DNA from: an uncultured bacterium | Lineage (GTDB): Bacteria; Bipolaricaulota; Bipolaricaulia; UBA7950; UBA9294 | Assembly (NCBI GenBank): GCA_903857865.1 | Contig: CAIOGO010000014.1 | Span: forward strand, 62,001-126,000 | Direction: 5' to 3' | DNA: 64,000 nucleotides | In this document: piece after piece, positions 24,194-34,607 of the stretch | Position numbering within the stretch: position 1 is the stretch's first letter | Layout: every line of letters begins with the position of its first letter | Made by a program: the position numbers and the translations under genes | The notes under the pieces: generated by a model | What the model was told of the DNA's origin: nothing | Seen by the model: the letters and a program-made list of their open reading frames with translations, nothing else | The model's database searches: none

Positions 24194-26383
24194 CTACGGA
24201 CTGTCCCCCCCGTTCTTGATGCACGCGATGGAGATCTGGACCTCGTCGTAGGTGATGGCGCCTTCGAGTTCCCGGAGGATGGAGATCGGGCGCGCGAGGC
24301 CGAGGCGGGTTGCTGCGGCGGCAACCCGAGCGAAAAGCGAGGCTTGGACCCACGGCTCGGGCGAGGTGAGCTTCTTCTCGCAGAGGTAGTCGAGGAGGTA
24401 CTCAAGCACGCGCTCGGACGGCTTGCCGACGGCGTCGACAACGTTGGCGAGGGACTCGCCGCGGTCGAAGCGGCCGTAGGCCATCTGCTTCGCGAGGTCG
24501 ACCGTGGGGCGCACGGCTCTTCCCCTTCGCGTGCGCTCTGGCTTCGGCACGGGCTTGAGGGTCGGATCGACGTTCATCTCGAGGCTGCGGCTTTCGCACG
24601 CCTCGACGATGGCGGCAACGAAGGCGTCGCCGTACTGGCGCGCCTTGGCTTCGCCGACGCCGGACACTTCGCGGAAGCCTTCGAGCGACGACGGCCGCCG
24701 TCGCGCCATGTCGCGCAGCGCGGCGTCGGTAAACACGATGTAGGCGGGCACGTTCTTCTCCCCGGCAAAGCGGCGGCGCAGAACACGCAGGGTGTCGAAT
24801 AGCCCGCGATCGACGCCGTCCCACGAGTCGGCCGCTACGCCTCGCGGAGCGGCTGTGTGCGGTGCGGCAGGTTTCAGCAGCCGCGGAGTCTCCTGGCCGC
24901 GCAGGACGCGGCGGCCGCGATCGGTGATCTTGAGCAGGTCGTATTCGCCCTCTCTCGTAAGGACACCCTGCCCGACGAGTTGCTCGATCCAGTCGCGCAC
25001 GAGCTTCTTTGAGAAGTCGCCAAGGAGGCCGTACGTGGAGAGCGTATCGTGGCTGTTCCCGAGCACGCGTTCGTCGCGCGAGCCGGTCAGCACGCTCGCG
25101 GTGTAGTCGCCGCCGTAGCGTTCCTCGAGACGGTAGACGCAGGATACGATCTTCTGTGCCACGACGAGCGCGTCGTCGAGGAGTTCGAGGTCGCCGAGGC
25201 AGACGTCGCACGCGTTGCAGCTCTCGCCCGCGAGCTCCTGGCCGAAGTACTTGAGGATTCCGCGATGTCGGCAGACGGCGCCGGCCGCGTACGCGGAGAC
25301 ATCGTCAAGCTTGGCGTGCGCGATCGTGCGCGCTTCCTCGGACTCGGACTGCTCGATGATGTAGCGCCACACGGCGTAGTCGCCGGAGCCGTAGAGGAGT
25401 ACGCATTCGGCGTCGAGCCCGTCGCGGCCGGCGCGGCCGCTCTCTTGCTGATAGTGTTCGAGCGACTTCGGCATCCCGGCGTGCACAACGGCGCGGACGT
25501 TCGACTTATCGATTCCCATCCCGAACGCGACGGTCGCGACGATGACGTCAATCTCTTCGCGAATGAACGCGTCCTGGGCGCGCTTGCGCGCGTCGTCGGG
25601 CAGGCCGGCGTGGTACGGAGCAGCGTGATACCCGGCGCCGGAGAGCTTCTCGGCGAGCGAGTCGACGTCGGCGCGGCGAATGCAGTAGACGATGGCCGAC
25701 TCGCCGCGGTGGCGGTCGAGGACTTCGCGCACTTGCTCGAGCGCGTCGGTGCGGCGCTCGACGGAGTAGACGAGGTTCGGTCGGTCGAACGAGCCGACGA
25801 GGACGCGCGGGTTCGCGAGCTTCAACTGCTCGACGATGTCGTCGCGCACGTGCTCGGTGGCGGTCGCGGTGTAGGCGTGAAGCGCCACGCCGGGAAAGGC
25901 GTCGCGCACGAGGCCAAGTTGGCGATACTCGGGGCGGAAGTCGTGGCCCCACATGCTGACGCAGTGCGCTTCGTCGACGGCGACGAGCGACAGGGACTGT
26001 TGTCGCAGGAAGCGTGCAAAGCCGTTCATCATCAGCCGCTCGGGGGAGACGTAGAGGATCTTGAGATCTCGGCGACCGATGGCGTCGACGACGTCGTCCT
26101 GCTCATCGGGCGTCTGCGAGCTGTCGAGCCGCGCCGCGGCAACGCCGTAGTCGACAAGCGCATCGACTTGGTCCTTCATCAGTGAGATGAGCGGCGAGAC
26201 GACGACGGCCAGTCCGGGAAGGACGAGGGCGGGCGCTTGGAAGCAGAGGGACTTCCCTCCGCCGGTCGGGAGAACGACGAGCGAGTCGCGGCCGTGGAGC
26301 GCGCACTCCATCGCCTCACGTTGCAGCGGGCGGAAGTCGCTGTAGCCCCAATGCTTGCGCAGAACCGCGGCGATCCGTTCCAC
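24194..26383 (-). CDS. recQ: ATP-dependent DNA helicase RecQ
   Basis: This 729-residue RecQ has PTGGGKSLCFQAPAL (Walker A), VDEAHCVSMWGHDFRP (DEAH box and aromatic-rich loop), TATATEHV and QESGRAGRDG (motif VI). The zinc-binding part of the RQC region is intact (CRHRGILKYFGQ, then CNACDVC), followed by a winged-helix region and an HRDC domain (SLEGFREVSGVGEAKARQYG). The last 100 residues hold a helix-turn-helix-like extension also seen in long RecQs. It unwinds recombination intermediates and stalled forks. GTG 26383 was chosen because GGGGGTGA lies just upstream and homology begins there. The last codons overlap a run of GGACTNN heptamers (24177-24204). Confidence 0.93.
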   Translation of the reverse strand: MERIAAVLRKHWGYSDFRPLQREAMECALHGRDSLVVLPTGGGKSLCFQAPALVLPGLAVVVSPLISLMKDQVDALVDYGVAAARLDSSQTPDEQDDVVDAIGRRDLKILYVSPERLMMNGFARFLRQQSLSLVAVDEAHCVSMWGHDFRPEYRQLGLVRDAFPGVALHAYTATATEHVRDDIVEQLKLANPRVLVGSFDRPNLVYSVERRTDALEQVREVLDRHRGESAIVYCIRRADVDSLAEKLSGAGYHAAPYHAGLPDDARKRAQDAFIREEIDVIVATVAFGMGIDKSNVRAVVHAGMPKSLEHYQQESGRAGRDGLDAECVLLYGSGDYAVWRYIIEQSESEEARTIAHAKLDDVSAYAAGAVCRHRGILKYFGQELAGESCNACDVCLGDLELLDDALVVAQKIVSCVYRLEERYGGDYTASVLTGSRDERVLGNSHDTLSTYGLLGDFSKKLVRDWIEQLVGQGVLTREGEYDLLKITDRGRRVLRGQETPRLLKPAAPHTAAPRGVAADSWDGVDRGLFDTLRVLRRRFAGEKNVPAYIVFTDAALRDMARRRPSSLEGFREVSGVGEAKARQYGDAFVAAIVEACESRSLEMNVDPTLKPVPKPERTRRGRAVRPTVDLAKQMAYGRFDRGESLANVVDAVGKPSERVLEYLLDYLCEKKLTSPEPWVQASLFARVAAAATRLGLARPISILRELEGAITYDEVQISIACIKNGGDSP

Positions 26384-26842
26384 CCGTTCACCCCCGGGCG
26401 AATGATACTCGGGCCTGTGGCATGTGGGGGAGGCGGCCTGGATGCGCGGTACGCGGCCCGTCGCGCACAAGAGGTGCGGCGCGTTCTTCCACAGAACCGA
26501 ACGCGCGCGCCTTCATAGAGGAGCGCGTAGCACTCTCTTCTTAGGCCCGGGTGCGACGCTACAGCGTCTCCCCGCCAACGGACGCACCGTCCGCGTTGTC
26601 CCGTGAACGGACGTAGCGTCGGAGCTTGTCTCCGACGTTCGCCTGGTGGAAACGAGATGGGGACGACGCGATCGCGACGTCGGAGACAAGCTCACGACAC
26701 TACACCGAACCCCAGGCCACGCACACCGCGAACGGCTCAGAATGGGCTGCGCGTTCAGGTTCAGTGCTATGATCGTACGGCGCAATGTCCGCTTGGGTCG
26801 GGAACGTGGCCGAAGAGTGAGGGTCCGGGCAGAGGAGGAGGG
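26384..26842. other. Gap with a REP-like inverted repeat
   Basis: No gene is seen. GAGCTTGTCTCCGACGT (26622-26638) recurs inverted and perfect at 26677-26693. The first arm is itself part of a hairpin (CGTCGGAG-CTTGT-CTCCGACG). The promoter of the 26843 gene should lie at 26760-26820. Confidence 0.5.
26622..26693. repeat. Inverted repeat of 17 bases with 38-base spacer
   Basis: The arms GAGCTTGTCTCCGACGT and ACGTCGGAGACAAGCTC are perfect. This may be a REP-like or small inverted-repeat element. Confidence 0.7.
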
Positions 26843-27561: not shown

Positions 27562-28347
27562 ATGATGAAACGGCTCCCGAAGCCAGTCTGGTTTGTCGCG
27601 GTGTTGGCTGTCGTAGCTCTAGGTGGCCTGGTGGTCTCTAGCTCCGCGCCGGTGGGGAAGGTCGACGTGCGCGTGAACGGGTTCGCCTTCGAGCCCGGCT
27701 CGAGCGTGGCACTCGAACTCGTCCCCGCGGATGGCGCCGCGTGCTTCGACGCAACCTTGTGGGTAGAACAGGTGGAACTCATCGACGCGAACGGAGACCT
27801 CATCTCTGTAGCGTTCTACGAGCCGCAGGTCGATGCAACCGAGTGGATCGGCACGGTGATCCTCCGCGCCGCGGATGGATCGGATCTGGCTTCCGGGGCC
27901 TACGAGATTCGCGTAACGACGAGCGGAGGCTCGTTCGTCGCCGGGCTCGAGGTCCTCTTGCCGGCGCAATTCGCTGACCTGGGCCAGTTCGTGGCCGGCG
28001 TGCCGGCGTGCAACACCTCGCTCCGCGTCAGTCGCCTCATTACGGAACTCGATGGCGGAGCCCGCGCGACGCTGCGCCGCGGCGATCGGCTGACGGTGGC
28101 TCTCGCCGGGAACCCGACGACGGGCTACTCGTGGTTGGACTCGCTCGCCTACGAGTACGCCGCCGTACGTGCCTCGGACGACGTCGAGTTCCGTCCCGAC
28201 TCAAGCCTCCTCGGAGCGGGCGGATTCTTCTTCTTCCGCTACCTGGCGTTTGACGTGGGATTGCAGGAGTTCCGCTTCGGCTACCAGCGGCCGTGGGAGT
28301 CGGTCCAGCCGCTTACGACGCTCACCTTCTCCGTCGACGTGCGCTGA
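27562..28347 (+). CDS. Exported protein with C-terminal chagasin-type (I42) protease inhibitor domain
   Basis: This 261-residue protein has an N-terminal hydrophobic signal or anchor (VWFVAVLAVVALGGLVVSS). A first domain of about 110 residues (residues 30-140) is a beta-sandwich of unknown type. The last 110 residues carry all three loops of chagasin inhibitors: NPTTGYSW, LGAGGFFFFRY (the GxGG loop) and YQRPWE. I42 inhibitors block papain-type cysteine proteases. It converges on a subtilisin-type protease gene, which belongs to a different catalytic class, so any link between them is open. GGAGGTTTGG precedes the start. Confidence 0.82.
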   Translation: MMKRLPKPVWFVAVLAVVALGGLVVSSSAPVGKVDVRVNGFAFEPGSSVALELVPADGAACFDATLWVEQVELIDANGDLISVAFYEPQVDATEWIGTVILRAADGSDLASGAYEIRVTTSGGSFVAGLEVLLPAQFADLGQFVAGVPACNTSLRVSRLITELDGGARATLRRGDRLTVALAGNPTTGYSWLDSLAYEYAAVRASDDVEFRPDSSLLGAGGFFFFRYLAFDVGLQEFRFGYQRPWESVQPLTTLTFSVDVR

Positions 28348-28458: not shown

Positions 28459-29868
28459 CTATGGCAGCACGGCGGCCAGTGCCGCGTCGGCCAGCGCGAG
28501 GCCGGAGCCGGTGGCGTTGGAGTCCCACGAGATCTCCACGACCTGGCCGCTACCGTCGTCGACGCGAGCCGAGCCTCGCGGGATCTCCAGGGCCGTCGCC
28601 TCGAGGATGGTCTCAACCTGGGCGGCCGTCAACGCCGGGTTCTTCTCCAGCATCAGCGCGACCAAGCTGGCCACGTGCGGCGACGCCATGCTCGTCCCAC
28701 CAAGGTAGTAGTACTGGCCGTTCTGGCTGTGCGACCAGAATGGCGGGTGCGACGCCCCGTTCCCGAGGTACGGTCCAACAATCCAGCTTCCAGGAGCCAA
28801 GACGTCGAGATCCTGACCCACCTTCTCGCGGCTGCTGAAGTCGGACACGTAGACGTCGCCGACGACCGTCGGGTCTGCGACATCAGTGCGCCACCAGGCG
28901 ATGCCGCCAACGCTCACCCACTCGTTCGTCCAGCCGACCGAGCCGACGCTGATCACGGGCGCGTAGGCGCCGGGATAGCCCATGCCCTGCTCGCCCTCGT
29001 TGCCGGCTGAAGCGACGACGATGACGCCGTTCTCGATCGCGTAGTCGATGGCCGCCTTCTCGAGCGGCGACAGAATCGAGCCACCGAGACTCATGTTGAT
29101 GACGACCGGCGCGCCGTCGAGTTCGGCCTTCAAATCAGCAATGTAGAGAATGCCGTGCGCGATCACGGTCGACCAGCCCGAGCCGTTGTTCTTCAGCACC
29201 TTGACCGGAATGACCGTCGCGAGCGGCGCGGCGCCGTTGATGCGGCGGGTTGGCATCTCGTACCCGAGCACGGTGCTCGTCACGTGCGTGCCGTGCCCCT
29301 CGGTATCCCGTTCCCAGGCATTCCTCGGCTCGGAAATGCTCGCGCTCTCGCTTCCACCTCCGGCGAACGCCTTGGCGTACTCAACCGCAATCTGATCCGC
29401 GGGCAGATAGTCGCGCCAGTTGCCGACGAGCCCCGTGTCGAGGACGGCGACGTACACGCCCGCGCCGCCTTGGATGACGACGCGAGGGCCCGTGGGATCC
29501 GTCGGATCCGTGATATTCATCATGTCGAGGTCCCACGTGCTCAGCCCGCCCGAGTAGTCGTAGGCGTGGCGTTCGGCACGATCCCCGACGACGGCCACGT
29601 ACGGCAGCGCCTCGATGGCGGCGAGCGCCGATTGGCGAACGTCCATCGCCACTCCGCCGATCTGCGGGTACGTATCGGTGACTTTCCCGTAGCCGCCGAG
29701 CTCAGCGATGACGGCATCTGTCAGCGTTCCGTCAACGACGACTTCAATGCTCCGCGCCGGGTCGCTGGCCATCGGATCGATGGACGCGGGTCCGAACGAC
29801 GTGCAACTCGCCGCGGCAAGTCCTAACAGCACTGCGAGCGCTGCAACGCCAACCCACCTTGTTCTCAT
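28459..29868 (-). CDS. Exported subtilisin-family (S8) serine protease
   Basis: This 469-residue protein starts with a signal peptide ending in a lipobox-like LAAASC (VGVAALAVLLGLAAASC), so it is probably a lipoprotein. A short propeptide-like region follows. The catalytic triad is complete: Asp in VAVLDTGLVG, His in EGHGTHVTS and Ser in GGTSMASPHVA; the oxyanion Asn lies in VVASAGNEGEQ. It would degrade proteins outside the cell membrane. The length is normal. The start follows GGGAGGATTCG. A 400-base region with several hairpins lies upstream, downstream of the silk-like gene's terminator. Confidence 0.92.
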   Translation of the reverse strand: MRTRWVGVAALAVLLGLAAASCTSFGPASIDPMASDPARSIEVVVDGTLTDAVIAELGGYGKVTDTYPQIGGVAMDVRQSALAAIEALPYVAVVGDRAERHAYDYSGGLSTWDLDMMNITDPTDPTGPRVVIQGGAGVYVAVLDTGLVGNWRDYLPADQIAVEYAKAFAGGGSESASISEPRNAWERDTEGHGTHVTSTVLGYEMPTRRINGAAPLATVIPVKVLKNNGSGWSTVIAHGILYIADLKAELDGAPVVINMSLGGSILSPLEKAAIDYAIENGVIVVASAGNEGEQGMGYPGAYAPVISVGSVGWTNEWVSVGGIAWWRTDVADPTVVGDVYVSDFSSREKVGQDLDVLAPGSWIVGPYLGNGASHPPFWSHSQNGQYYYLGGTSMASPHVASLVALMLEKNPALTAAQVETILEATALEIPRGSARVDDGSGQVVEISWDSNATGSGLALADAALAAVLP

Positions 29869-30275: not shown

Positions 30276-33200
30276 CTAGCGGAGTTGGATCGCCTGTCGA
30301 TACACCGCCCGCAGCTGTGCTGCGTTCTCCAGAGTCACGCTGAGAACGTTCGTTGGCTGCGTCTCGGAGGTCAGCTGGATGAGGATGTCGTCCCACGCCT
30401 CCGTCGCTGCGTTGTAGCGCTGCCACTTCCAGAACACGAGCTTCACTTGCTCCCGCGTCCAGTACTCGCTCGCCGCCTGGAGAACGTAGGTGATGCCCGG
30501 CGTCCCACACAGGCGGAACGGCGTGTCCTGCGGCTTGTCCCGACCCACGCTGATGGGCGCAGTCAGCGGGTCGGTCGCAAACTCGGGTACGGCCGCCGTC
30601 ACGAGAGGAATGCGCTGGTACATCAGCACGGACGAGACCTCCATGCATGCCTGCGTGACCCTCGTCCCGGGTGTGAACGTGAAGCCCTTCTGCGCATACA
30701 CCGCGCGATACTGCGCGTCAGGTTCGAGGACCACAACGATCGCGGTCTCCGTGGAGATTGCCTCCCACGCGCCCGTTGCGGCGCTGAGTTTCTCCCAGCG
30801 GGCGAACGGGGAAGGATCGGAACCGGCCGCCCCGGCCGTCGCCGCGGCCTGCAGCATGAACTTCATGCCCGCAGCGTCGCAGACCTGGAATGGAGTGACC
30901 CGCTCCTCGGCGTACCCAACAACGATCGTTGCCGAGATCTCCGCCATGCGCGTCCCAAGGAACAGGAAGACAGACGATTCCTGCACCGCGGAGATGCTCG
31001 TGCAGGCGCGCGCCACTTGCTCCGGCTCTGACGTGCGACCCGTCGACATCGTCACCAGGAGCCGCACCACCGCGCACTGGCGGGAGTCGAGGAACTCGAA
31101 GGTCGCGTAGTAGCTCATGCCGGCAGTGAAGGTCCCGCTCACGATGCCCTTCCGCCCTTCGAGGTCGATCGAGACGCTCGCCCCCGCCGGAAGGTTGTCT
31201 CCGGATGGGATTGCGCCCACGATCGCATACGCACTCAAGCGCTGCATGACGTCACTGGGAATGGATTGGCTCCCGTTGAAGGACATGCCGCTCGGGACCT
31301 CTCCAAAGTCCCAACTGAGTTCCTCCGCCTTCCCGCAACCCGTGGGCGTCGTCCCGGGGACTCCGGGCTGTTCTTGTCCACAGGGCGGGCATGGCCCCGT
31401 CCCGGCCTGCTGACAGACCGGAGTGAGGCAGTCTGGGTCGATGAATGACTGAATAGACGTCTGGACGTTCGGAACGACCTCCACCGACGTGCGGGCCGTC
31501 GCTTCAGCGTTGGCGGCCGCGCTGGCCATGGCGTACGCCTGCGCCAGAGCCTCGGCCGTCGCTTCGGCGGCCACGACAGCACTCGCGTTCGCCTCGGCCG
31601 CCGCGGACGCCGACGCCGTCGCGTCTGCCATAGCCAGCGCCAACACCTCGGCCGAGACCGACGCGCTGGCCTGCACTTCCGCGATCGTCTGGGCGGCGGC
31701 AAAGGCTGCGACCTGCGCACTCGCCTCGGCCGCGGCCGCCGCACCCGCATACGCCGACGCCTCGGCGAAGGCATCTGCTGCCGCCCGCACGGCCACGGCC
31801 ACCGCAGCGTTCGCCGCGGCCACCGCGCTCGCCGCGGCGTACGCGGCTGCCTCCGCATCGGCTTGGGCAAGGGCGATCGCCCCGACACCCGTGCGCGCAG
31901 CGGCCTCCGCATTGGCGTATGCCCATGCAGCCGCGTGTGCGTCCGCTTCTGCGGTCGCCTGTGCGCTCGCCAGCGCGTCCACGCCTACCGCAACCTGTGT
32001 CCACGCGTCCGCTTCGGCTCGAGCCGCCGCACGAGCGGACGCTCCGGCCTCCGCCAGCGCACTGGCCAACGATTCGGCTTCGGCTCGTGCCGTGGCTTCA
32101 GCCTGTGCTCTTGCTTCGGCCGCGGCCAGAGCGCTCGCTTGAGCGTCCCCGACGGCCCCGCACAAGGATTGCGAGCCCGTCGCCGCCGCCGCGTATGCGT
32201 TCGCGTATGCCGCAGACGCCGCCCCCAGCGCCGCTTGCGCTCGCGCCGCGGCCGCAGCGGCCGCCTGTGCGTGCGCGAACGCCTCGGACGACGAGGTCGC
32301 CACGGCAGCCGCGAACGTCTGGGAATAGGCTTCTCCCGTACCCGCAGCTGACGCGGTTGCCTCGGCGCTCGACGCTGCACTGGCCGTCGCCTCGGCGCAC
32401 GCTGTCGCCGACGCTTGTGCCTCAGCGGCTGCCGCCGCGCACGCTCCTGCCTGAGCCTGCGCCTCGGCCACCGCAGCTGCAATCGCCGCCGCCTGGGCGG
32501 CCGCCGCCGCTTGCGCGGAGCCATAGGCCGTCGCCGCCGCGGTTGCGCTGGCCGTCGCCTCGCTGGCTGCGGTCGCGTACGCGCTTGCAGCAGCGCTCGC
32601 TGCGGCCTGGGCACGCGCACACGCACTCGCTGCAGCGGCCGCGCCGGCGGATGCTGCCGCCTGCGACTCGGCCACTGCGGATGCCATTGCTTGCGCGACG
32701 GCGCTTGCCTGGGCGCACGCTTGCGCGATGGCCTCGGAATACGATTGAGCCGAAGCCGTGGCGCGTGCAACGGCTTCGGCCATGGCCTCCGCATGGGCGA
32801 ATGCCGCCGCGCACGCCTGCGCAACTGCCGTCGCCTCAGCCTCAGCCGAGCTCTTCGCGACCGCGATCGCGGACGCCGCAGCTCGCGCCGCGGCCTGAGC
32901 CTGCGCTGCTGCCACCGCGATCGCCCCCGCACGAGCCTCCGCTTCCGCGTGCGCTTGGGCGATGGCCGCTGCCGCCGCAAAGGCCTCCGCCTTCGCAGAC
33001 GCCTGGGCCTGTGCGATGGCCTGTGCTGCAGCTTCCGCGCGGCTGTACGCGACGGCCGCTGCGTCCGCCTGGGCCTGCGCGCGCGCGTGCGCCGAGGCAG
33101 CCGCCTCCGCATGCGCGCTCGCGCTCGCCGAGGCCAGCGCTGCGGCCTGCGCCGCCGCCTTCGCCGCTGCGTCCGCCTGAGCAACTGCGGTCGCAATCGC

Positions 33201-34193
33201 CTCGACGACGCCCCGGACTTCGGCAACGACCACTCCACACGGAACCTGCTGGCTGAGCGTCTCCGAGACGAGCGCCGCGGCGCTCTGCGCCTCGGAGTAG
33301 GCGCTCGCGCTGGCGCCCGCATAGGCAGCGGCCTGCGCCGCCGCCCCACTCACGGCCATCGCACGGACCGCTGCCATCGCCGCGACTTCGGCACTGGCGT
33401 CCGCTTCAGCCTGCGCGCTCGCAAACGCGGCGGCGGCAGCCGTCACCTCGGCCTGGGCTCGGGCGAAGACCTCGGCCATCGCCTCGGCCACGGAGGAGGC
33501 GTAGCTCTCAACTCCGACCGCCACTGCCGCGCAAGCTTCGGCGCTCGCTCTGGCTTCCGCTGCCGCCACTGCAATCGCCTGCGCGATCGCGGCGGCATCC
33601 GCCGATGCATTCGCGCTCGCCACCGCGCACGCGCCCGCCGACGCATCAGCCCGTGACGCTGCGCTCGCGCAAGCAAGCGCAAAGGCATCGGCTGACGAGG
33701 ACGCAGCCGCGGATGCCGTAGCACACGCGGTCGCACTGGCCGCGGCTCGGGCCTCGGCACCCGCGCAGGACTCCGCGAACGCCGCGGCACGCCCGACCGC
33801 CCAACTGGCCGCATCGGCAATCGCCGCGACGCTCGCCTCGGCGGTTGCCGCCGCCTCCGCGCACGCGACGGCGGAGCTCGACGCTTCCTGAGTTGCCACG
33901 TCTCGTGCGGATGCCACGGCCGCCGCGGCGTCCGCTGCCGCTTGGCTCGCGGACCAAGCCGCCGCGAGCCTTCCGCTTCCGTCGAATTGCCCCAAGAGCC
34001 CCTGCGCGGCCGCCGCGATCGCCGCTGCATCCGCGGCCGCCTGTGCTGCCGCCGCGGCGGATGCCTGCGCCCCGTCAACGATGTCGGACAAGATGATCGT
34101 TCTGCTCGGAGCCTGTGTGCCCGTTTGCGTGGACGCCGCGAGACTCGCGAGTACGAGAAGTCCGACCAGTAGAAGAACCTTCGTCGCTCTCAC
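30276..34193 (-). CDS. Giant alanine/serine-rich silk-like exported protein with C-terminal repeated modules
   Basis: This is a protein of 1,305 residues. Residues 1-25 form a signal peptide (VLLLVGLLVLASLAAS). Residues about 35-910 are almost entirely Ala, with Ser, Glu, Gln, Thr, Val and a regular scatter of Tyr, Cys and Arg, in patterns such as AQAxAxAxA; Pro and Gly are rare. Such sequence favours long helices or stacked Ala sheets, like silk or coiled fibre proteins. A Cys/Pro/Gly-rich hinge follows (CQQAGTGPCPPCGQEQPG). The C-terminal 330 residues are a normal domain region with two related units, each with a Cys, a phenylalanine (F-V/L-C), YVLQAA or MLQAA and a final LRAVY or YRAVY. 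It is probably an extracellular fibre or matrix protein whose tail anchors or assembles it. GTG 34193 was chosen from GGAGG spacing. Confidence 0.8.
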   Translation of the reverse strand: MRATKVLLLVGLLVLASLAASTQTGTQAPSRTIILSDIVDGAQASAAAAAQAAADAAAIAAAAQGLLGQFDGSGRLAAAWSASQAAADAAAAVASARDVATQEASSSAVACAEAAATAEASVAAIADAASWAVGRAAAFAESCAGAEARAAASATACATASAAASSSADAFALACASAASRADASAGACAVASANASADAAAIAQAIAVAAAEARASAEACAAVAVGVESYASSVAEAMAEVFARAQAEVTAAAAAFASAQAEADASAEVAAMAAVRAMAVSGAAAQAAAYAGASASAYSEAQSAAALVSETLSQQVPCGVVVAEVRGVVEAIATAVAQADAAAKAAAQAAALASASASAHAEAAASAHARAQAQADAAAVAYSRAEAAAQAIAQAQASAKAEAFAAAAAIAQAHAEAEARAGAIAVAAAQAQAAARAAASAIAVAKSSAEAEATAVAQACAAAFAHAEAMAEAVARATASAQSYSEAIAQACAQASAVAQAMASAVAESQAAASAGAAAAASACARAQAAASAAASAYATAASEATASATAAATAYGSAQAAAAAQAAAIAAAVAEAQAQAGACAAAAAEAQASATACAEATASAASSAEATASAAGTGEAYSQTFAAAVATSSSEAFAHAQAAAAAAARAQAALGAASAAYANAYAAAATGSQSLCGAVGDAQASALAAAEARAQAEATARAEAESLASALAEAGASARAAARAEADAWTQVAVGVDALASAQATAEADAHAAAWAYANAEAAARTGVGAIALAQADAEAAAYAAASAVAAANAAVAVAVRAAADAFAEASAYAGAAAAAEASAQVAAFAAAQTIAEVQASASVSAEVLALAMADATASASAAAEANASAVVAAEATAEALAQAYAMASAAANAEATARTSVEVVPNVQTSIQSFIDPDCLTPVCQQAGTGPCPPCGQEQPGVPGTTPTGCGKAEELSWDFGEVPSGMSFNGSQSIPSDVMQRLSAYAIVGAIPSGDNLPAGASVSIDLEGRKGIVSGTFTAGMSYYATFEFLDSRQCAVVRLLVTMSTGRTSEPEQVARACTSISAVQESSVFLFLGTRMAEISATIVVGYAEERVTPFQVCDAAGMKFMLQAAATAGAAGSDPSPFARWEKLSAATGAWEAISTETAIVVVLEPDAQYRAVYAQKGFTFTPGTRVTQACMEVSSVLMYQRIPLVTAAVPEFATDPLTAPISVGRDKPQDTPFRLCGTPGITYVLQAASEYWTREQVKLVFWKWQRYNAATEAWDDILIQLTSETQPTNVLSVTLENAAQLRAVYRQAIQLR

Positions 34194-34196
34194 CAC

Positions 34197-34607
34197 GACC
34201 TCCTCTTAGATCTGCCCCGGGCTTCCCGGGGAGCTTCTCCTTGACGGTCGACGGAGAGCCGCATCGAAGCGGCATAGCGAGCCACAGACAATGCACCCTT
34301 GCAGGCGGACCCAGCGAGGTTGCGCCGGATTCTCAGCAGAGGGCCATGGCCGATCTATTTCTTCGCCAACCCACCGCAGCCACCGATCACTATACAGCCG
34401 ACCCCGCCAGAACGTGTCATGCCGGGCACCTCTGTGCGTTCATCGCCTGCGAACCCCTCCGGACTTCCCCCCGTGGGACGCTGCTGCTCGACGTCGAGGG
34501 GCACTCTCCCAGCAGCCCATCTGTGGCCTCACCGGCCAAACCACACGGCGGATTCGACCATCGCTTGCCCTCTTGTTCTCACCTATGTCTTCCGCTATCA
34601 TCCTCTC
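34197..34607. other. Divergent intergenic region between silk-like and radC genes
   Basis: No gene is seen. A hairpin CCCCGGG-CTT-CCCGGGG lies near 34216-34232 in the leader of the silk-like gene. The radC promoter is at 34573-34601. Confidence 0.4.
34573..34601 (+). promoter_or_regulatory. Putative radC promoter, close to leaderless
   Basis: TTGTTC and TATCAT are separated by 17 bases. The -10 box ends only 6 bases before ATG 34608 and no ribosome site fits between, so the transcript may begin at or near the start codon. Confidence 0.4.

Follow-up and report, generated by a model that had tools for sequence, protein, structure and literature searches.

The antigen I/II proteins (SpaP/P1) of streptococci show an alanine (Ala)-rich helix which serves as a long stalk for beta-sandwich domains, and they also contain proline-rich partner repeats and an LPXTG motif. 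The type I hyperactive antifreeze protein Maxi contains Ala-rich helices folded back into a bundle, with an 11-residue Thr repeat. Honeybee silk fibroins F1-F4 form a tetrameric coiled coil (PMC12284834), and coiled coils whose length is conserved more than their sequence typically act as spacers (PMC5082667). The stretch analysed here, a 64-kb window of an uncultured bacterium of the Bipolaricaulota (contig CAIOGO010000014.1, positions 62,001 to 126,000), belongs to a 2.24 Mb assembly of 22 contigs (GCA_903857865.1) and contains a gene (30276..34196, minus strand) encoding an exported protein of about 1,306 amino acids, here called the rod protein. From its N-terminus, this protein consists of a signal peptide, the Ala region (roughly residues 41-900), a cysteine (Cys)/Pro linker and three folded modules. 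We consider it probable that its single chain runs up, down and up again as three helices, forming a rod that serves the envelope as a stalk or spacer of fixed length and carries variable beta-sandwich modules at one end.

Three arms and their length

The Ala region contains 50.7% Ala, followed by Ser, Glu, Val and Gln, with 13 Cys, 14 Tyr, one Pro and 28 Gly. Between residues 41 and 900, Ala is found at 350 of the 430 even positions and at 86 of the 430 odd ones, and the register never slips over these 860 residues; the even-odd difference is 264, and the maximum reached in 20,000 shuffles was 62. The odd (non-Ala) sites are mostly occupied by A, S, E, Q, V, R and T. The initial annotation described an almost pure Ala-rich pattern with Ser, Glu, Gln, Cys and Tyr, which is real but incomplete, since the strict period of two went unnamed. 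Its claim that Pro and Gly breaks are lacking does not agree with the Gly and Pro counts nor with two conserved breaks, VPCG (residues 318-321) and AAGTGEAY (residues 617-624), which part the region into three equal arms and are important for its fold.

Three arms can be read from the sequence, all features being on the minus strand and numbered by window position. Helix 0 (residues 34-70; 33987..34097), with the conserved start motif xPFLPDIVA, precedes arm 1 (helix 1, residues 73-314; 33255..33980), which shows Ala at alternate residues. Turn 1 (residues 315-323; 33228..33254) contains the conserved (V/I)PCGxVVxEVxG, with an invariant Cys, and leads to arm 2 (helix 2, residues 324-618; 32343..33227). 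Turn 2 (residues 619-621; 32334..32342) lies within AAGTGEAY, where relatives show two-residue loop indels, and arm 3 (helix 3, residues 622-918; 31443..32333) ends in the conserved TSVxVVPxIxTSxxxFIDPxCL. The limits of arms 1 and 2 come from alternation, periodicity and AlphaFold2 (AF2) prediction, those of helix 0, turn 1 and arm 3 from AF2 and alignment, and those of turn 2 from AF2.

Homologues of 1,190-1,340 amino acids are found in related genomes. Arm spacings, measured between the xPFLPDIVA start, the Cys of VPCG, the Gly of AAGTGEAY and the Cys of FIDPxCL, are 285/297/306 in the window protein and the long-rod relatives, and 253/265/274 in most of the short-rod relatives with all anchors readable; long rods thus show exactly 32 additional residues in each of the three arms. 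Expressed as arm lengths, the values are 285/299/304 for the window protein and 253/267/272 for most relatives. The slabs missing in short-rod relatives are located approximately at 33849..33944 in arm 1, 32577..32672 in arm 2 and 31998..32093 in arm 3, and these best positions, each known only to within tens of residues, could all lie at one height of a folded-back bundle. Distant members keep near-equal arms, 224/223/225 in L033 and 90/93/100 in L063, and one partial member has a third arm of 225. The remaining indels are mainly at predicted loops, the exceptions being a 5-residue insertion in L025 and the irregular partial copy L055 (G096:C152). This copy, in which arm 2 is short by four residues and arm 3 shows an apparent deletion, is either an assembly error or a decaying copy. 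Without lateral packing, arms that stay equal over a threefold length range would be difficult to account for, and because the three arms change length together, rod length is suggested to be a selected trait.

Arms 1 and 2 also contain Cys at matching heights, which are gained or lost jointly. Arm 1 shows a ladder of Cys112, Cys144 and Cys176, 32 residues apart (33669..33863; heights 208/176/144 from the turn-1 Cys), and arm 2 contains Cys462, Cys494 and Cys526 (32619..32813), partners of 176, 144 and 112, respectively, with heights of 206/174/142 from 526 to 462. Heights of 176/144 in arm 1 against 174/142 in arm 2 are found in 19 of the 23 sequences; L021, L025 and L040 lack these Cys in both arms, and L031 lacks one partner. 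All five long rods show a third pair, at 208/206, within the extra slab.

In the mechanism that we infer, the rod protein would be exported through the Sec pathway, and its chain would fold back twice, at the conserved turns, so that three alpha-helical arms, each about 290 residues long, lie side by side in a bundle. The resulting stiff rod would measure about 43-45 nm (~44 nm at 1.5 A per residue). Ala at alternate residues would allow close packing of the three long helices along the whole length, the 32-residue repeat (nine helical turns) would set the register of the arms, and the matched Cys may lock that of arms 1 and 2. Because three arms put the N- and C-termini at opposite rod ends, the modules would lie ~44 nm from the N-terminus, and the rod would keep these variable Ig/CnaB-like modules at a constant distance from the point where it is anchored in the cell envelope. 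As length-conserved coiled coils are typical spacers, an envelope stalk presenting binding modules at a fixed distance is favoured; it would lie at the surface or in the envelope, and may serve as a spacer or adhesin. More tentatively, and with slightly more doubt than trust, we propose that an undescribed helix-packing code (alternate Ala, 32 residues in nine turns and Cys rungs) builds a single-chain three-helix ruler in Bipolaricaulota, whose length evolves by matched 32-residue slabs in all arms and which sets a fixed envelope distance.

Several points weigh against an envelope stalk of one folded-back chain. The fold could be a domain-swapped oligomer, and no membrane anchor, SLH domain or sorting signal was found in the rod protein. 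AF2 confidence for the rod is moderate (mean predicted local distance difference test score, pLDDT, 70.5; predicted template modelling score, pTM, 0.36; mid-rod below 50), and AF2 readily gives helix for Ala-rich sequence; owing to this bias and this mean pLDDT, sequence periodicity was weighted above the model. The 32-residue ladder spacing fixes the Cys register only modulo 32, and Cys was gained or lost in about two events during evolution, so that the Cys register is taken as supporting evidence only. VKOR, one disulfide route, is absent from families f1 and f4, in a search that did not cover DsbA/DsbB.

The initial annotation saw in this protein a giant silk-like fibre, possibly a new extracellular material. 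In its developed form, which we consider unlikely, helical rods would polymerise, either at their ends or along their sides, to give a fibre, sheath or coat outside the cell. Honeybee silk, an antiparallel coiled coil, likewise contains an Ala-rich helical coil (PMC12284834), the export signal is there, and molecules could be cross-linked through conserved unpaired Cys found at heights 162/130/98 of arm 1. However, rod length is locked and changes in concert, the gene is normally single-copy and shows no repeat expansion (tandem DNA repeats are few), and modules at one end fit a stalk better than a bulk fibre. What stands of the silk-like description is the Ala-rich helical coil, the structural class of insect coiled silk and not of beta-silk, curli or S-layer proteins, but no evidence for a polymeric fibre was found. 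Since the locked length varies solely by units of 32 residues or at loops, and the normally single-copy protein would fold back twice at conserved turns, a defined-length rod is preferred to a giant fibre.

Somewhat less likely again is a periplasmic spacer that, as Omp-alpha does in Thermotoga, would determine how far the inner and outer membranes lie apart. The ~44 nm rod is near the 50 nm of Omp-alpha (PMC5082667), and a Thermotoga-like envelope was proposed for Ran1 (PMC6092417). Omp85 and an SLH protein are encoded in these genomes, and because both are consistent with a diderm envelope, a periplasmic placement is possible. But the rod protein shows neither an SLH domain nor an outer-membrane anchor, and a separate SLH protein already exists (the SLH match of the genome is a separate open reading frame on contig C3). 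Furthermore, variable beta-sandwich modules are commoner in outward-facing proteins, and many relatives have no rod.

Helical periodicity and conservation of Ala sites

The non-Ala sites carry a 32-residue repeat, and its decay of similarity with lag fits nine turns per 32 residues. The hydrophobicity period at these sites is 3.545-3.553 in every arm (power 14.6-21.6, which none of 2,000 shuffles attains), and 4.57 is an alias of this helical period because only alternate residues are sampled. The phases of Ala-parity and non-Ala sites agree at 9/32 (3.556), where they are 21, 21 and 58 degrees apart, and disagree at the alias 7/32 (4.571), where they are 159, 159 and 122 degrees apart. AF2, run with 23 homologues, predicts only helices in the rod: H3-39, H42-283, H293-587 and H591-887 (rod numbering), with breaks at rod residues 40-41, 134-155 (low confidence, inside H42-283), 284-292 and 588-590, and the weak zones of the model fall at matching heights of the arms. 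The 32-residue repeat, the 3.55 period with agreeing phases and the predicted helices argue for alpha-helix rather than beta-strand, so the Ala region is most likely an Ala-rich alpha-helical coil, and the fold class of the rod protein is well supported.

A beta-silk or beta-solenoid with Ala at every second, inward residue was first suggested by the period of two, which is the in/out period of a beta-strand and is kept in one register over 860 residues. This reading was dropped as very improbable: the helical period of 3.55 residues at the non-Ala sites comes with phases that agree, and the phase test excludes the alias that a 32-residue beta coil would produce. In addition, turn-forming residues are few, AF2 gives only helices, and equal arms parted by turns are not expected of a solenoid.

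Among five long-rod species, Ala sites are kept at 88-95% and other sites are identical at only 38-52%, and shared Ala codons differ in their third base at 65-77% of sites, which is close to saturation. Because Ala sites are retained while silent positions are saturated, the alternation is, as judged from these comparisons, strongly selected at the protein level rather than a DNA repeat of recent origin; the region contains few tandem DNA repeats. The Ala region is indeed common in relatives, as a common linker would be, but as a selected structural element and not a free linker. A low-complexity, largely unstructured Ala-rich linker arising from G+C-rich drift, which the high G+C content (74.7%) and the biased composition would suit, was rejected as next to impossible in view of the Ala sites conserved despite saturated silent sites, the exact length conservation and the helical phase signal.

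End modules, relatives and genomic setting

A Cys/Pro-rich linker (residues 919-954; 31335..31442, minus strand, as the modules), identified in the sequence and with low pLDDT, joins the rod to three modules supported by prediction. End module 1 is an Ig/cadherin-like beta-sandwich (residues 958-1053; 31038..31325) predicted by AF2, with a fold-comparison Z of about 7 to cadherin domains. End module 2 is a predicted CnaB/pilin-like beta-sandwich (residues 1063-1170; 30687..31010; AF2 and fold comparison), and end module 3 (residues 1183-1302; 30291..30650; AF2, fold comparison and alignment) is related to it, both being 36% identical. The two related tail modules annotated initially are thus present, but the Ig/cadherin-like module is additional to them. 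The fold matches (Z <= 7.2, with many tied rows) are generic Ig/CnaB-like and not specific, and no Pfam match above cut-off was found for the end modules, the CnaB/pilin sequence family included. A match of the tail to a known S-layer or adhesin family had been named as a result that would speak against the initial annotation; the tail resembles only generic Ig/CnaB-like beta-sandwiches. Kelch-like matches of an end module were discarded, as they depend on a short W-x-RYN-x-W motif and none of the stretches passed by itself.

Tail composition varies among relatives while the rod keeps its length, the same rod being found with different modules. L032 (G099:C225, 908-5815, plus strand), a second rod gene in G099, encodes 1,636 amino acids, with equal rod length and several more Ig-like modules. 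In L063 (G075:C267, minus strand), a DYGDAP (GEVED-like) domain precedes the short 90/93/100 rod, which indicates that family f3 uses the same rod type in a different protein. The initial suggestion that the tail module might be found in other secreted proteins of the same genome was not borne out: no further copy was found there at E <= 0.001. In related G004, L015 (G004:C57, 1576-3381, minus strand) encodes a rod-less exported protein of about 600 amino acids with an Ig-like module and four end-module copies. L054 (G022:C12, 1675-4176, plus strand), incomplete at the contig end, encodes an exported protein in which Ig-like and end modules are joined to WD40-like and PKD-like repeats.

Rod homologues were found in 33 of the 100 sampled genomes of the phylum with a profile of the first turn, and a codon pattern of 12 alternating Ala in 44 of the sampled genomes, at least one of which (G073) shows a simple repeat. 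The rod gene is single-copy in nearly all genomes carrying one. The named relatives are Candidatus Bipolaricaulota metagenome-assembled genomes, in which absences may be gaps, and a scan of 84,980 species for close tail relatives, the sole test outside the phylum, found only Bipolaricaulota. The rod protein shows no Pfam or NCBIfam match except a sub-threshold COS match, PHROGs gave only two weak, sub-significant matches, to the tail, and phage and plasmid collections gave none. The rod profile did not match PDB sequences, and a PDB fold search with the rod gave no convincing match, the best being a designed protein (E 1e-3, TM 0.07). On these searches, no known family covers the rod protein.

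The rod gene has two in-frame GTG start candidates, 34196, which gives the longest open reading frame (1,306 codons plus stop), and 34193 (1,305 codons plus stop). The latter, already taken as the gene end in the initial annotation, is probably the true start, because its distance of 5 nucleotides to a putative ribosome-binding site, AAGAGGAGG (34199..34207, minus strand), matches the AAGGAGG-5 nucleotides-start spacing which recurs in several relatives. A Sec-type signal peptide (about residues 1-22; 34131..34196, minus strand) can be recognised in the sequence, and relatives show a comparable charged/hydrophobic leader. Several family-f4 rod genes show a G+C-rich inverted repeat just before the ribosome-binding site, and a TATAGTG promoter-like element is upstream of those of L017, L018, L020, L022, L024, L027 and L029.

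Downstream of the rod gene and on the same strand is a gene encoding an exported subtilisin-like protease (28459-29868, minus strand), possibly a lipoprotein, with a Cys in its leader; it is not kept beside the rod gene in relatives. Close to it, a gene on the plus strand (27562-28347) encodes an exported protein with PTTGYSW, which we take to be a chagasin-like (I42 peptidase inhibitor) signature. A RecQ-like helicase gene is near the rod gene, on the same strand, in the window (24194-26470, minus strand) and in G023 (L036, 2099-4306, minus strand), perhaps a weak trace of synteny within family f1; no conserved gene neighbourhood of the rod gene was found across families. In three family-f1 genomes, a gene encoding a small exported Cys-rich protein, a possible partner of the rod protein, is directly upstream of the rod gene (L021, 7789-8424, minus strand; L038, 8876-9457, minus strand; L041, 3990-4622, plus strand); it was not found beside the rod gene in the window.

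Comparison with known systems

The alternating-Ala code, the 32/9 repeat and the concerted length change of three arms are new features. If the proposed structure is true, nature would offer a rule for designing rigid helical rods of great length from one chain, and the gene would be a clear example of three separate parts that evolve in length together. The rod protein is a candidate large surface or envelope protein in a phylum that lacks cultured genetics and of which one member is reported to be prosthecate; no pili, fimbriae or adhesins had come to light in earlier searches of the type genome of the phylum (PMC6092417).

The rod protein shares with Omp-alpha of Thermotoga (50 nm rod) and SlpA of Deinococcus a long, length-conserved coiled-coil rod in atypical diderms (PMC5082667, PMC9388160). 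Unlike these, it shows no SLH domain (Pfam, NCBIfam), outer-membrane anchor or beta-barrel, its C-terminus consists of two predicted beta-sandwich modules, and its chain would be antiparallel and folded back instead of forming a parallel oligomer. With honeybee silk it shares an exported, Ala-rich, alpha-helical antiparallel coil, but silk is formed by four separate chains in a tetramer, whereas the rod protein is one chain with three arms, encoded by one gene in nearly all genomes, and has a 32-residue repeat with alternate Ala, a locked length and beta-sandwich modules at its end. The strict in/out alternation is like that of beta-silk or a beta-solenoid, from which the rod differs in its helical period and predicted helices. 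The folded-back bundle of Ala-rich helices resembles Maxi, but the rod is far longer and has a 32-residue repeat and no Thr ladder. Like antigen I/II, the rod protein would be an Ala-rich helical stalk bearing beta-sandwich domains, but its sequence contains no proline-rich repeats or LPXTG, and each helix would pair with the other arms of its own chain.

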